Assembly (NCBI GenBank): GCA_003402375.1
Contig: QFXJ01000051.1
Location: forward strand, 1-64,000
Direction of reading: 5' to 3'
Origin: Candidatus Nitrotoga sp. CP45
GTDB lineage: Bacteria; Pseudomonadota; Gammaproteobacteria; Burkholderiales; Gallionellaceae
DNA length: 64,000 nt
The translations under genes were made by a program, and so were the position numbers. This document shows, in pieces, positions 55,472 to 60,133 of the stretch. Every line of letters begins with the position of its first letter. The stretch's first letter is position 1. A model generated the notes under the pieces. It did no database searches. It had not been told where the DNA came from and saw only the letters and a list, made by a program, of their open reading frames with translations.

Positions 55472-55535
55472 CAGGCTGCGCTTGGGATTAAGCAAGCGTA
55501 GTCTGGGCTAACGTAGATAGGCGCTGAGCTTGCGA

Positions 55536-55549
55536 AGCCCAACATCACA
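55536..55549 (+). repeat. Half REP at left side of RAYT copy 1
   Basis: AGCCCAACATCACA is the right arm and trailing part of the forward REP. The left arm is degenerate (GAGCTTGCG). It sits just upstream of the RAYT remnant at 55561, where full copies stand elsewhere. Confidence 0.55.
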
Positions 55550-55560
55550 AGGGAATGCAC

Positions 55561-56098
55561 ATGCGTTACCGACGTGCCGGTGCTGCGGGAGAGGCACATA
55601 CTTCTTCACTGTTAATCTGGCTGAACGGCGCTCCGATTTATTGGTGCGGCATATCGATGATTTGCGTGCAGCCATGAAAACGGTGAAAGACACACATCCG
55701 TTTGCCATCCTGGCGATGGTGGTGTTACCCGAACACCTGCATGCGATATGGCGCTTACCGCTGGACGATGCCGACTATCCACTGCGCTGGTCGCTCATCA
55801 AAGCCGGGTTTTCCAGGCGGCTGGCAAGAGGCGAGCACATTACATTCGTGCCAGCCGCCAAGCCAAGCATGAGCGAGATATTTCGTAGCGGCGATATTGG
55901 GAACATCAAATTCGGGATGAAATTGATCTTGCGCGGCACGTCGATGACATTCATTACAATCCTGTAAAACATGGCTAGGTCACTCACCCTGTTGATTGGC
56001 CACATTCAACATTGCATGGCTATATTGAGCGGGGGATGGCAGCATCGGATTGGGGTGTGCAAATAGGTGATGGAGTAGATGGTTATGGTGAGCGGTGA
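55561..56098 (+). pseudogene. REP-associated tyrosine transposase (RAYT) copy 1, broken
   Basis: Reads MRYRRAGAAG, then after a frameshift GTYFFTVNLAERRSD, HIDDLRAAMKTVKDTHPF, and the HUH motif in LPEHLHAIWRLP, then WSLIKAGFSRRLARGEHI. Near 55840 a four-base insertion shifts the frame. The rest in the third frame is RASRQAKHERDIS, stop, RRYWEHQIRDEIDLARHVD, IHYNPVKHG with the likely catalytic tyrosine, stop, then HGYIERGMAASDWG to the TGA at 56098. Two frameshifts and two nonsense changes show it is inactive. REP sequences flank it on both sides. Confidence 0.82.
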
Positions 56099-56130: not shown

Positions 56131-56160
56131 CGGGCTATTTGCACGATCTTCTTAACGGTT

Positions 56161-56337
56161 CTATAGCAAAGTAGAGGCAGTCAAGGCAACCGAAAGCGGC
56201 CAGCGTACACGATATAGAGCGTCATAATCAACGACACAGTAGATACATTCAAGCAGGCCGAGATTATCGGCCTCTGCATAAAATATAAGGGGTTGTGGGG
56301 TAAGAGACCATGCCATTTTTAAAGCAATAGCCGACAT
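56161..56337 (-). CDS. Possible 58-residue protein, unknown
   Basis: An open frame of 58 residues beginning MSAIALKMAWSLTPQPLIFY and ending SVALTASTLL, with GGAGG four bases before the ATG. It contains a hydrophobic C-terminus and two cysteines. It is divergent from the CHRD gene. No family is recognised. The frame could be a chance survivor, or a cut-down remnant, because a hairpin (AGGCCGA/TCGGCCT, 56255-56273) lies inside it. Confidence 0.35.
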   Translation of the reverse strand: MSAIALKMAWSLTPQPLIFYAEADNLGLLECIYCVVDYDALYRVRWPLSVALTASTLL

Positions 56338-56483
56338 TTAACCTCCATAAGTGTTCTACCGCACAGATTTCTTATTAGGCAAGGATAATAATTCCTCCAT
56401 TGAATAATGAAATTCAGAAAGATTGAATCATCATTGCTCATCATAAATTGGTAAATTGTTTAATCTTAATGGAGGTAATTTTA

Positions 56484-56951
56484 ATGAATATTATTCTTAA
56501 CAAAACACGATCCGTTTTTTATACTGGTACTTTGGCAATCAGCATTTTGATTGGTGGCATTGGCCTTGCATCCGCTGCTGCAATCAATGTAACCCTAAGT
56601 GGCGACGAAGAAGTACCGCCAGTTAGAACTTCCGCGTCCGGTGTAGGAAAAATAGAAGTGGCGGGTGGAATAGCTGGTGACAAATCAATTCGTGGGTCGA
56701 TAACTACTACAGGAATCGATGGTACAGCGGCTCATGTTCATGAAGCTCCGGCAGGAAAAAATGGGCCGGTTATTATCACCCTTAAGAAAACATCTGCCAA
56801 CGTTTGGGAAATTCCATCTGGCGCATCTTTAACAGACGCGCAATATGCTAATTTCAAAGCCGGGGATCTCTACCTAAACGTTCATAGCGTAGCCAATAGG
56901 GACGGAGAAATACGCGGTCAGATAAAAAGAAATAAACGTAGCCATAATTGA
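56484..56951 (+). CDS. CHRD domain-containing exported protein
   Basis: A 155-residue protein from the ATG at 56484 (GGAGG seven bases upstream; the frame is open from 56448). A signal peptide ends near ASAAA. The single CHRD domain shows INVTLSGDEEVPPVRTSASG, AAHVHEAPAGKNGPVIITLK and the closing LYLNVHSVANRDGEIRGQI. The chordin-type domain is common in secreted bacterial proteins of unknown role. It lies alone between RAYT remnants and is followed by a hairpin. Confidence 0.88.
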   Translation: MNIILNKTRSVFYTGTLAISILIGGIGLASAAAINVTLSGDEEVPPVRTSASGVGKIEVAGGIAGDKSIRGSITTTGIDGTAAHVHEAPAGKNGPVIITLKKTSANVWEIPSGASLTDAQYANFKAGDLYLNVHSVANRDGEIRGQIKRNKRSHN

Positions 56952-56963
56952 AACAATAACCTG

Positions 56964-56985
56964 AACCCCATCAACAGATGGGGTT
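56964..56985 (+). terminator. Terminator after CHRD gene
   Basis: Perfect nine-base arms AACCCCATC (56964-56972) and GATGGGGTT (56977-56985) with a four-base loop, 13 bases after the stop, followed by a T-rich but interrupted stretch. Confidence 0.7.
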
Positions 56986-57507
56986 TGGTGTTCCTCTATA
57001 CAGAGTAAATAATGTCACGAAATTTCCCAAGTCCTCACCCCGATCAAGAACCTTGAATACCTCCAGAGCCACAGATACACCCGAAACCACACATTAACAA
57101 TCCGCCGCCTTTCGATCCAGATTCTTCCCCATAACAGGAGAAAATGGAAAAGCCTGACGACGAAAGCAAGACATAATTCGAGGAGTAGTTGGAGGCTGGA
57201 TTATTGAAAATAAAAAGATGCAACAAAACAAAAAGTAGCTGGGCGGACAGGTATACGTTAGCGCTTTACCTGTCGCGCCTTTTAACTTTTAGTATATTTT
57301 CCAGGTGCATCTCCCCAACGTTTTTGATCAACTACTGGACCATAATTGTTATGGCTCCAGCTTCAACTCGTTAAACCATTTCAGTACTCCAGCAAGTGAG
57401 CCACGTTTATTTTCCATTGTAGCCAATCGGTTGTTGTTGCTATTACTATAAACAGCATAAACATACTTGCCAGGATGATAATAAGCGTGGTGCTTATTTC
57501 CAGCCCG
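56986..57507. other. Non-coding region between CHRD gene and RAYT copy 2
   Basis: About 520 bases. A glycine/cysteine-rich minus-strand frame (57044-57226) has no ribosome site and is not accepted. No other gene was found. Confidence 0.4.
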
Positions 57508-57534
57508 GTTGGGCTGAATGAAATGAAGCCCAAC
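57508..57534 (+). repeat. REP palindrome, forward copy, left of RAYT copy 2
   Basis: Complete TTGGGCT/AGCCCAA arms with the full core, followed by CATCACA as at 55536-55549 and 59944-59972. It immediately precedes the second RAYT remnant. Confidence 0.75.
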
Positions 57535-57555
57535 ATCACAGAGGAATGAACACAC

Positions 57556-57930
57556 GCGTTGCCAACGTGCCGATGCAGCGTGAAATACATACTTTTTTAC
57601 TGTTAATCTGGCTGAACGGCGCTCCGATTTATTGGTGCGGCATATTGATGATTTGTGCGCAGTCATGAAAACGGTGAAAGACGCACATCCGTTTGCCATC
57701 CTGGAGATGGCGGTGCTACCCGAACACCTGCATGCGATATGGTGTTTACCACCGGGCGATGCCGACTACCCGATGCGTTGGTCGCTCATCAAAGTCGGGT
57801 TTTCCCGGCGGCTGGCAAGAGGCGAGCACATTCGAGCCAGCCGCCAAGCCAAGCGCGAGCGCGGCATCTGGCAGCATAGGATTGGGGTGTGCAAATAGGT
57901 GATGGCGTAGATGGTTATGGTGAACGGTGA
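57556..57930 (+). pseudogene. RAYT copy 2, internally deleted
   Basis: Nearly identical to copy 1 in LAERRSDLLVRHIDDL, TVKDAHPFAIL and the HUH motif LPEHLHAIW (here followed by CLPPGDADYP), and it keeps the frame GFSRRLARGEHIRASRQAK that copy 1 lost by insertion. The start ATG has become ACG. About 140 bases, including the YNPVKHG tyrosine region, are deleted between GAGCG-type repeats, and the sequence jumps to the shared 3' end (GGATTGGGGTGTGCAAATAG). Confidence 0.75.
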
Positions 57931-57933
57931 AAT

Positions 57934-57960
57934 GTTGGGCTTCATTTCATCTGGCTTAAC
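57934..57960 (-). repeat. REP palindrome, reverse copy, degenerate, right of RAYT copy 2
   Basis: Left arm TTGGGCTTCATTTCAT intact, right arm changed (CTGGCTTAAC). It lies three bases after the RAYT copy 2 end and about 105 bases before the accessory three-gene cassette. Confidence 0.6.
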
Positions 57961-58065
57961 CTACTAAGCCATTGGTTTTATATAAAAGCTGTATCAGTTG
58001 AAGACACTGGTGTAGGATAATCGTACTCAAATCGAGCACGCCGTGCATAAATTACTGAGAGAGAT

Positions 58066-58779
58066 ATGCGAATAGTTGTTACTGATCTAACGCGATTCCA
58101 AAACCAAGAGTTGCTCTGTCTCGCAGGCCTTACAGAAGATGGGCAGCAGTGTATACGCCCATTATCAGCTTCCAAACCAGGCTATCTTTCATTCACAATG
58201 TGCAAAAAGTTGAATATTCTCCCTGGCACAATTCTGGATGGTACTTTTACCACACCTCTACATATTGATGCGCCTCATATTGAAGATATGCATTATTCAG
58301 ATTTAAAAACAGTAGGCGCAGTCGATTCGACTGAATTTCAATCCATCCTAGAGAAATCTTCCACCACATCAATCAAATCTGGCTTTGGTTGCACGAGCAA
58401 ACCAACTGATAAGGTATTAACCACCCCGCCCGCCAAGTCAATCATAACTCTGAAGCTCAATCCAAGACAGTTTCAAGTTGTTCAAAATAAATTCGATAAC
58501 GAAACAATTAAAGCCCATCTGACTGACAGTGATGGTTTAAAGTTGAGCTTCCTTTCAATCTCAGATTTGGGCTTCTACGTGAACGTAGGTCAGTCCGCGA
58601 CTCGAAAAATTAGCGCCAAAGAAATTACAGAGTTTATTCAAGAACAAGATGAGCTATTTGTCCGTCTCGGTCTGGGCAGAAAACATATAAGTGGTGATGG
58701 CAGGGAAGGCTATTGGATGCAAGTTAACGGGATATATACTTTCCCAGATTATCAAAAAATCGTGCGCACATATGAATGA
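58066..58779 (+). CDS. Probable dual-OB-domain protein, cassette gene 1
   Basis: A 237-residue soluble protein that opens MRIVVTDLTRFQNQELLCLA with QQCIRPLSASKPGY, and ends GREGYWMQVNGIYTFPDY. The pattern (beta strands with CIRPL, a flexible middle around 95-125, then a second strand-rich half with LKLSFLSISDLGFYV) resembles proteins annotated as 'dual OB-containing'. That label is from memory and moderately certain. OB folds usually bind nucleic acid or nucleotides. The stop overlaps the ATG of the DUF488 gene (ATGAATGA). The gene is AT-rich. Confidence 0.75.
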   Translation: MRIVVTDLTRFQNQELLCLAGLTEDGQQCIRPLSASKPGYLSFTMCKKLNILPGTILDGTFTTPLHIDAPHIEDMHYSDLKTVGAVDSTEFQSILEKSSTTSIKSGFGCTSKPTDKVLTTPPAKSIITLKLNPRQFQVVQNKFDNETIKAHLTDSDGLKLSFLSISDLGFYVNVGQSATRKISAKEITEFIQEQDELFVRLGLGRKHISGDGREGYWMQVNGIYTFPDYQKIVRTYE

Positions 58780-59227
58780 CATGGAAGAGATATTCACAAT
58801 CGGCTTTACAGCAAAACGAGCAGAAGATTTTTTCAAGCTATTAATAAACAAAAATGTTAAGACAGTTCTTGATGTTCGTCTAAATAACAAATCCCAACTG
58901 TCTGGATTTGCAAAAAAAGATGACTTAAGGTTTTTCTTAAGAGAATTTGGTGGAATTGCCTATATAGAGGCGAGAGACCTCGCGCCAGAAGCTGAGATTT
59001 TAAAACGTTACCAACGTAAAGAAATATCTTGGGAAGAATATGCTGATCGTTATTTGAATCTCATTAGCAAGAGAAACGTTGAACGGTTGATTGAAAAAAA
59101 TCAAGTAATTGGAAGTTGTCTATTATGTAGTGAACATCTGCCTCACCACTGCCACAGGCGGCTGGCAGCTGAATATCTGAATACTCAATGGGGCACTGCC
59201 CTAAAAATCACTCATCTAGTGAAGTAA
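58772..59227 (+). CDS. DUF488 domain protein, cassette gene 2
   Basis: A 151-residue DUF488 protein. It begins IFTIGFTAKRAEDFFKLL, has the conserved Asp-x-Arg in LDVRLNNKSQLSGFAKKDDL (Asp34, Arg36), and ends with the cysteine/histidine motif CLLCSEHLPHHCHRRLAAEY (Cys116, Cys119, Cys127, His128). The DUF488 reaction is unknown; the clustered Asp, Arg, Cys and His suggest an enzyme acting on a nucleotide or nucleic acid. The ATG at 58772 overlaps the previous gene by eight bases; an ATG at 58781 is also possible. The next gene begins four bases after the stop. Confidence 0.88.
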   Translation: MNDMEEIFTIGFTAKRAEDFFKLLINKNVKTVLDVRLNNKSQLSGFAKKDDLRFFLREFGGIAYIEARDLAPEAEILKRYQRKEISWEEYADRYLNLISKRNVERLIEKNQVIGSCLLCSEHLPHHCHRRLAAEYLNTQWGTALKITHLVK

Positions 59228-59231
59228 TAGC

Positions 59232-59915
59232 GTGCAAACTGAAAACACAAAAACACATTTACTGATTGCCTTACCTCGCTTGTTTTGCTTTAAGGCTATT
59301 TTTGACAAGACCGTCAGTTCAGTCCTTGATGGCCTTGGAGATGCGGATGTTTCGCTTGTTTCTGACAATGCAGGTAAAGCAAGGAAGTTGTTGGAATCCA
59401 AAGGACTTACCCCACACGAAGTAAAAATTTCAACCAAGCTAGACGCTAAAAACGCCCTAAAGAAATACAGTCATGTACTCGTATTTTGGGATGGTGAAGA
59501 ATTAACGGATATTATTTATTACGCTAAATATTTCAACAAACCCATCCGAATAGTTCCAGTACAAATAACTAAGGTCAGAAACAAAGACCATGACGAAGCG
59601 TTCGACGTTTATATTGGAAGAAAAACCCCGTGGGGCAATCCTTTTCCCATTGAACATGATGCACATGGCGACAAGCGAAAGGAGGTCATTGAAAAATTTA
59701 AAGTTTACTTTCAAGAGGAATTTATTGATAAACCCGACAACCTAAAACATCTGCTTACTCTTCGAGGAATGAGACTTGGTTGTCACTGTAAGCCGTTGCC
59801 CTGTCACGGGGATGTCATTGCTGACTTCATTAATAATTACTTTGACATTGCCGAACAACTCGATCAAATCGGAGAGAGTCAAACAAATAAGCCGAAGGTT
59901 TCCGAACATGTGTAA
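59232..59915 (+). CDS. Rossmann/SLOG-like + DUF4326 fusion protein, cassette gene 3
   Basis: A 227-residue two-domain protein starting at GTG 59232. The N-terminal 115 residues have alternating strands and helices with HVLVFWDGEELTDIIYYAKY, like the end of SLOG/YpsA-type nucleotide-binding folds, but the usual GSR and G-x-G sites at the start are replaced (ALPRL), so it may be a degenerate member. The C-terminal 100 residues are DUF4326: VYIGRKTPWGNPF (126-138), then LRGMRLGCHCKPLPCHGDV with Cys184, Cys186, Cys191, His192 and Asp194. It is the last gene of the cassette; a REP follows within 60 bases. Confidence 0.8.
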   Translation: MQTENTKTHLLIALPRLFCFKAIFDKTVSSVLDGLGDADVSLVSDNAGKARKLLESKGLTPHEVKISTKLDAKNALKKYSHVLVFWDGEELTDIIYYAKYFNKPIRIVPVQITKVRNKDHDEAFDVYIGRKTPWGNPFPIEHDAHGDKRKEVIEKFKVYFQEEFIDKPDNLKHLLTLRGMRLGCHCKPLPCHGDVIADFINNYFDIAEQLDQIGESQTNKPKVSEHV

Positions 59916-59943
59916 TCGAGAATCGATGGGGTTAGGCCTGTAA

Positions 59944-59972
59944 GCTGGGCTGAATGAAATGAAGCCTAAACA
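59944..59972 (+). repeat. REP palindrome, forward copy, with RAYT 5' fragment
   Basis: CTGGGCT/AGCCTAA arms with the intact core and the trailing CATCAC. About 25 bases further on, the DNA (TACCGACGTGCCGATAC) matches the start of the RAYT gene, so a whole RAYT unit probably once stood here. Confidence 0.65.
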
Positions 59973-60133
59973 TCACAGGCTACGGATGAAAAGATACTTT
60001 ACCGACGTGCCGATACAGCGGAAAGCACATGCAATCGGACCGGAACTAGCCGGATAAACCGTCTTTCAACCATACTACTTCTTGCTCCCCCCTGTTTTTC
60101 TACACCTACCGGTTTCAGGTACAATCGTGCGCA

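Follow-up and report, generated by a model that had tools for sequence, protein, structure and literature searches.

A mobile DuOB, DUF488 and mSLOG-DUF4326 gene trio in Candidatus Nitrotoga sp. CP45 as a candidate DNA-directed defence module

The 64,000-nucleotide stretch of Candidatus Nitrotoga sp. CP45 analyzed here (contig QFXJ01000051.1, positions 1 to 64,000; hereafter the window) carries a trio of genes at positions 58066-59915, on the + strand upstream of hrpA, that encode a divergent DuOB (dual OB) protein, a DUF488 protein, and a fusion of a minimal SLOG domain with DUF4326 (mSLOG-DUF4326). This trio is a conserved unit that recurs in viral contigs, plasmids and genomes, and the locus is a divergent member of a predicted, catalogued kind of candidate defence module. 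Trees show that DuOB has been exchanged between such modules, independently of DUF488 and DUF4326, which evolve together. On balance, we consider it probable that the trio acts as a mobile DNA-directed defence module.

The gene layout agrees with a first-pass annotation of the window, which had described three tightly packed, AT-rich genes next to hrpA, with one overlap of eight bases and one gap of four; this earlier observation is confirmed. Gene 1 (58066-58779, +; 237 aa) overlaps gene 2 (58772-59227, +; 151 aa, ATG start) by eight bases, and four bases separate gene 2 from gene 3 (59232-59915, +; 227 aa, GTG start). Their GC contents are 0.41, 0.38 and 0.40, compared with 0.54 for hrpA. 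The longest open reading frame of gene 2 opens at 58691, aligned relatives begin near 58772, and a second ATG at 58781 is a possible alternative start. Promoter-like sites occur at chance level, and there are 3 terminator-like sites against 1.8 expected.

A scan of viral contigs for the DUF488 subtype of gene 2 gave 36 loci, several on contigs that are near-copies of one another, and the content of each cluster was established from local profile searches of its reading frames. The first-pass annotation had proposed a neighborhood survey for conserved trios, and the homologs proved to be regularly adjacent: DuOB was in the cluster at 35 of the 36 loci (partial in L132; identifiers of this type are our own) and mSLOG-DUF4326 at 25. 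The gene order of the window, DuOB-DUF488-mSLOG-DUF4326, was found at 23 viral loci (in L116 the last gene is cut by the contig) plus L131, and L130 has a permuted trio with gene 3 first. A second DUF488 accompanied DuOB at nine viral loci, eight of them in the order DuOB-DUF488(B)-DUF488(C), L132 included, and L123 with DuOB last. In L114 the contig edge follows DUF488, and L133 has a truncated DUF488 and a second DUF488 without DuOB.

The same linkage was seen in genomes and plasmids. DuOB occurred in five of 398 genomes of the phylum, with DUF488 adjacent in all five; three of these loci have mSLOG-DUF4326 and two have the second DUF488. Gene 3 had seven matches in the 398 genomes (E up to 1e-5), comprising three trios, one lone mSLOG-DUF4326 and three proteins with DUF4326 only. 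Among plasmid records, 34 matched gene 3 and 130 matched gene 2. We opened eleven of the 34 with a gene 3 match, and the lone-DUF488 type once; seven of the eleven hold the full trio (L010, L012, L015, L016, L171, L172 and L174). In L174, a 4167-bp plasmid whose four annotated genes include those for DUF488 and DUF4326, the trio spans the record start and the DuOB pieces read open at both record ends. DuOB is interrupted by a transposase-like gene in L011, an ISEcp1-blaCMY-31 segment lies inside the trio and cuts DuOB in L013 (NC_010259.1, 132-5820), and the trio of L173 has decayed. L174 carries the same DUF488 and DUF4326 proteins as L013 without the annotated ISEcp1-blaCMY-31 segment. On a Photobacterium plasmid (L017; NZ_CP090497.1, 5031-6233), DUF4326 stands beside a Sir2-family gene without DUF488. 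A blastn search against E. coli genomes gave no match, and a scan of the genome contigs with one protein returned one locus. Chance adjacency of the three genes is rejected, given that members of these families are again neighbors at distant loci among the viral contigs and the 398 genomes.

The earlier proposal that the trio is mobile is also upheld by its distribution, given that gene 2 is present in one of 19 same-genus genomes and that copies lie on plasmids and viral contigs. For the other 18 genomes of the genus, the trio was judged absent by gene 2 alone, and several of them are incomplete; all 18 have hrpA, whole or in part. No second DUF488 matching gene 2 was found elsewhere in the source genome.

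Gene 1 is the most divergent component. It scored 22.7 bits (E 1.1e-4) against Pfam PF22557 DuOB, for which the curated cut-off of 27 was not reached, and had no match to PADLOC PDC-M45A at E up to 1; it is DuOB-like by fold, by gene order, and by its relatives of 37-44% identity at the same position. A tblastn search of plasmids with one DuOB protein (P0001) gave no match although plasmids carry DuOB, because the family is too divergent. Modeled with AlphaFold2 (28 sequences; pLDDT 91.6, pTM 0.89), the gene 1 protein is beta-rich, with its strands in two groups. Foldseek ranks 1-7 were HIN-200 domains (E 3.6e-4 to 3.0e-3), followed by matches that include RPA, single-stranded DNA-binding protein (SSB) and CST-type chains, and LEF-3 proteins, the baculovirus SSB, led the matches in a viral structure library. 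The matches listed by VIA-align 2 were for the most part OB proteins; they aligned to residues 1-92, at a Z of 5.8 or less, and barely covered the second half. The model and both structure searches thus bear out the OB folds that had been claimed for this protein, and we propose that gene 1 would be a DNA-recognition subunit.

Trees and distance correlations were calculated for the 28 loci with all three type-A genes, window included; the second-DUF488 loci, the broken L011 and L013, and the later-fetched L171, L172 and L174 were left out of the trees. Alignment A4 was made without L103, L109, L110, L114, L116, L121, L126, L128 and L132, and alignment A5 without L103, L109, L110, L114 and L116. 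Pairwise distances correlated at 0.89 between DUF488 and DUF4326 and at 0.48 between DuOB and either of them, and in 2000 permutations no correlation as high as any of these three was obtained. DLTRF-type DuOB occurs in five of these loci (window, L004, L112, L120 and L131), which we picked for the likeness of their DuOB proteins, ahead of building the trees for DUF488 and DUF4326. The five form one clade in the DuOB tree (100/100), and the same grouping was rejected for DUF488 (p-AU 1.6e-5) and for DUF4326 (p-AU 2.9e-5), which shows that DuOB has been exchanged between modules. By path length, the nearest relatives of the window DUF488 and DUF4326 are L098, L099, L100 and L101, with L118 in addition for DUF4326, and all of these loci carry the common DuOB type. 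Median end branches were 0.56 for DuOB, 0.15 for DUF488 and 0.26 for DUF4326. Rapid change and exchange of an OB protein, alongside an enzyme pair that stays stable, would be expected of a recognition subunit, and we infer that DuOB has this role.

The two conserved partners have firm domain assignments, and the identities claimed by the first-pass annotation (DUF488, DUF4326 and a SLOG-like domain) held against the Pfam cut-offs. Gene 2 scored 84.8 bits against PF04343 DUF488 (curated cut-off 22.2), 41.5 bits against DUF488-N3a, where it is closest to the 'active' N3a subclade, and 196.8 bits against PADLOC PDC-M45C, the subtype to which we refer it. We take DUF488 to belong to the rhodanese-phosphatase superfamily. 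Its candidate active-site residues comprise D34-x-R36 (58871-58879, +), both invariant in 12 sequences, and its candidate active site includes C116-LL-C119-S-E121 ... C127-HRR (59117-59161, +), in which C119, E121, C127, H128, R129 and R130 are invariant and C116 nearly so in the same number of sequences. A lone DUF488 of this subtype lies on an IncC plasmid (L014; NZ_KY887594.1, 6007-6438), adjoining a UvrA-like gene and formaldehyde-detoxification genes, and many plasmid matches at 51.0% identity look like this protein.

Gene 3 combines an mSLOG (minimal SLOG, Rossmann-like) domain (59256-59576, +; PF22565, residues 9-115, 39.2 bits, cut-off 27) with a DUF4326 domain (59580-59822, +; PF14216, residues 117-197, 81.9 bits, cut-off 25). 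The DUF4326 motifs GR...WGNP and C-x-C-x-P-x-x-CHGD are present, and G129-R130, W134-GNP, C184, C186, P188 and C191-HGD are invariant in 23 sequences. No PADLOC model matched gene 3, an NCBIfam search of the trio proteins gave no match, and sequence searches of the Protein Data Bank with them gave none or only weak, unusable matches. In the AlphaFold2 model (23 sequences; pLDDT 87.1, pTM 0.79) the N-terminal half is an alternating beta-alpha, Rossmann-like fold. The second-ranked VIA match was YpsA (DUF1273; 2nx2, Z 9.3, rmsd 2.7, 104 aligned), which we assume to be a SLOG member; carbamoyl phosphate synthetase ranked first (Z 9.6), and YpsA is tied with other Rossmann-like folds. The model and the YpsA match are in agreement with the Rossmann fold previously claimed for this half.

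DUF4326 relatives were found in 1854 phage records, and in the rows listed they often stand beside nrdA or td, an example being Acinetobacter phage Acj61 nrdA.1; this proximity suggests a role in nucleotide or DNA modification. Passages of PMC9503650 state the fusion of DUF4326 to SLOG, place DUF4326 in the rhodanese-phosphatase superfamily, and describe viral DUF4326 as likely to process the phosphates of ADP-ribose derivatives. A bridge between NAD signaling and DNA modification, interfacing with replication and restriction-modification (RM) systems, is suggested in a passage of PMC7824862.

The genes that surround the relatives point in the direction of defence. We read the neighbors to unequal depth, covering part of those at 23 viral loci as well as those on twelve plasmid records and on four trio-bearing genome stretches; a pooled PADLOC scan covered 85 proteins from 22 viral loci (best 25 of 70 families), and 30 neighbor proteins chosen by eye were scanned singly, with L176 and L177 outside the PADLOC scans. 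A defence-type neighbor was found at eight loci. In L126 (7-10053), pglX, DuOB, DUF488, DUF488, pglZ and brxL follow in that order, joined by four-base overlaps and one one-base gap, and L125 has PglX upstream and BrxL downstream; both loci are of the second-DUF488 version, and they were the only relatives read with BREX genes. A complete ZorABCD lies about 3.4 kb from the module in L178, beyond an intervening pair that is presumably IS-like, and the DLTRF-type DuOB of this locus is one of the four closest to gene 1. In L175, also of the second-DUF488 version, the module is followed by genes for PDC-S21 and for PD-Lambda-2 B and C; elsewhere an annotated NotI-family RM pair (L015), a type II methyltransferase (L099), capP (L129) and PDC-S35/TIR (L101) adjoin it. 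The nearest thing to a defence gene at L171 is an AAA ATPase with distant similarity to defence ATPases, and terminase, portal and other phage genes also neighbor the module on viral contigs. Defence is the best reading because a sister version sits inside a BREX operon and other copies adjoin defence genes, and the possible nucleic-acid-directed defence role suggested at first is supported as probable by the BREX, Zorya, PD-Lambda-2 and RM neighbors.

Comparison with known systems defines what is new. The PADLOC candidate PDC-M45 consists of DuOB (A) and two DUF488 proteins (B and C); gene 2 corresponds to PDC-M45C, and the DuOB relatives in L003, L010, L012, L015 and L016 match PDC-M45A. In contrast, PDC-M45A recognizes neither gene 1 nor the DuOB relatives in L004 and L009 (E up to 1), and the third gene of the trio in the window is mSLOG-DUF4326 rather than a second DUF488 (M45B). 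The HIN-200 proteins IFI16, AIM2 and p202, which are animal DNA sensors, are the best structural matches of the gene 1 model, with tandem OB barrels over about 200 residues; at a TM of only 0.31-0.39 and 9-12% identity, the likeness is probably one of arrangement and not of membership. BREX (pglX, pglZ, brxL) is related to the module through the DuOB-DUF488-DUF488 version nested between pglX and pglZ in L126, whereas the window had no tblastn match (E up to 1e-3) to PglX, PglZ or BrxL of L126. In 2023, Burroughs and Aravind reportedly united RapZ-C, DUF488 and DUF4326 and predicted DNA-end processing in conflict systems; the trio, with conserved Cys, His and Arg residues in its DUF488 and DUF4326 domains, would suit such a prediction.

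The earlier interpretation therefore stands in part: a mobile, nucleic-acid-directed module with OB and Rossmann folds and a probable defence role is retained, whereas the claim of an undescribed system is not, since DuOB, mSLOG and DUF488-N3a are already curated Pfam families, PDC-M45 is listed as a PADLOC candidate, and a functional prediction for DUF4326 is published. The suggested sensing or editing of a nucleotide stays hypothetical. Experimental study of the trio was absent from the literature matches listed. No report of DuOB exchange was found in the literature searched, and none of the BREX-nested copy there or in a term search of PMC12839542; these are two points that a specialist might not know.

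As a mechanism, DuOB would be the recognition subunit: its two OB folds would bind DNA that is foreign, damaged or modified, and the protein would deliver this DNA to a conserved enzyme pair or switch the pair on. The pair would be formed by DUF488 and mSLOG-DUF4326, or by DUF488 and the second DUF488, and may act on DNA ends or a nucleotide, removing or transferring their phosphate or sugar-phosphate groups; a candidate nucleotide is an ADP-ribose derivative bound by the SLOG domain. As an outcome, replication of the invader would be blocked or the infected cell disabled. The particular phosphate or sugar-phosphate chemistry is doubtful as proposed here. Equally tentative is the broader notion of a modular prokaryotic immune system in which rapidly diverging tandem-OB subunits, arranged as in HIN proteins, would be interchangeable for DNA recognition on a constant DUF488 and mSLOG-DUF4326 core; the reaction of this core, at phosphates or ribose-phosphates of DNA ends or of an NAD-derived nucleotide, would be new to defence systems.

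Other functions might account for the same genes. The module could be selfish, serving counter-defence for the mobile element itself rather than the cell, by shielding the element from nucleases of the host or by degrading nucleotides that act as alarm signals. Its carriage by small plasmids such as L174, the terminase and portal genes among its neighbors on viral contigs, and the likely processing of ADP-ribose-derivative phosphates by viral DUF4326 (in a passage of PMC9503650) would be consistent with such a function; however, the copy in a BREX operon and those by Zorya and PD-Lambda-2 point to the host side, and most of the 80 viral DUF4326 loci retained in the analysis lack DuOB and DUF488, so that this published view mainly concerns stand-alone proteins. 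We consider this selfish function rather unlikely. An accessory function in DNA-end repair or nucleotide salvage, in housekeeping or stress and with no conflict role, is unlikely: the lone DUF488 by a UvrA-like gene on the IncC plasmid, the OB folds typical of single-stranded DNA handling, with LEF-3 among the best viral-library matches, and the proximity of phage DUF4326 genes to those for ribonucleotide reductase and thymidylate synthase, among the matches listed, would all suit it, but neither the patchy presence of gene 2 in the genus and of DuOB in the phylum nor the defence-type neighbors are suited to housekeeping. Small, co-directional, overlapping plasmid genes, with BrnTA, RelE and CcdAB pairs near the trio in several opened records, also recall a toxin-antitoxin-like addiction module in which one enzyme is toxic and its partner restrains it. 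Yet the genes number three, two conserved domains look enzyme-like, no antitoxin-like regulator is apparent, and broken copies persist in L173, L011 and L013, so that loss is tolerated at least there; we regard addiction as very unlikely.

Several observations weigh against a DNA-directed defence module with an exchangeable recognition subunit. Its parts also occur apart, as in the partnerless DUF488 on the IncC plasmid, the mSLOG-DUF4326 without DuOB or DUF488 in G117, and the DUF4326 relatives in phage records. The likeness of gene 1 to HIN-200 is weak (Foldseek TM 0.31-0.39, identity 9-12%), its VIA-align 2 Z values are middling, and HIN chains were not among the 50 VIA matches listed. The trees gave long-branch warnings, the window row and L131 among them, and the rapid divergence of DuOB could be plain relaxation. 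Only eight of the relatives read had defence neighbors, in a tally that was partly chosen by eye and has no background rate, and carriage by phages and plasmids fits roles that serve the element equally well. The rest of the window appears to consist of housekeeping genes and repeats, as judged from the first residues of their products and ten Pfam scans, and tblastn of 13 defence proteins from the neighborhoods of relatives against the window gave no match. Activity, binding or phage-protection data for the trio were not found in the literature searched.

The flanks of the trio were compared with ten same-genus regions. On the left lies a REP/RAYT-like remnant (57507-57964), identified by its repeats, and stretches homologous to it occur upstream of hrpA in same-genus regions. 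The inner, inverted REP of this remnant (57932-57964) forms the left border of the cassette. The right border is formed by a REP (59934-59977) that adjoins the upstream region of hrpA, and about 60 bp of the same element as the left remnant also lie on this side; a 24-nt direct repeat is common to this REP and to 57510-57533. The name RAYT for both elements is our assumption from a motif only, and a Pfam scan of two RAYT-like open reading frames gave no match. The flanks described at first are accordingly borne out for the REP-type repeats, which lie on both sides, but the longer REP/RAYT-like remnant lies to the left and not to the right. The hrpA-side REP is contiguous with hrpA in six of the ten regions fetched (five realigned), the sequence to its left differs between regions, and a clean empty site was not found among the ten. 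REP/RAYT-like elements at 55530-55967 and 57507-57964 recur upstream of hrpA in same-genus genomes. Between REP elements lies a CHRD-domain gene (56448-56951), and a blastn search with the surrounding DNA (56138-57489) found nothing similar in the ten regions.

DUF488 and DUF4326 are uncharacterized families, and a compact trio with copies inside a BREX operon and beside Zorya and PD-Lambda-2 offers a context in which their function can be tested. Should recognition lie behind the exchange of DuOB, swaps of DuOB between modules would directly reveal the target that is recognized.

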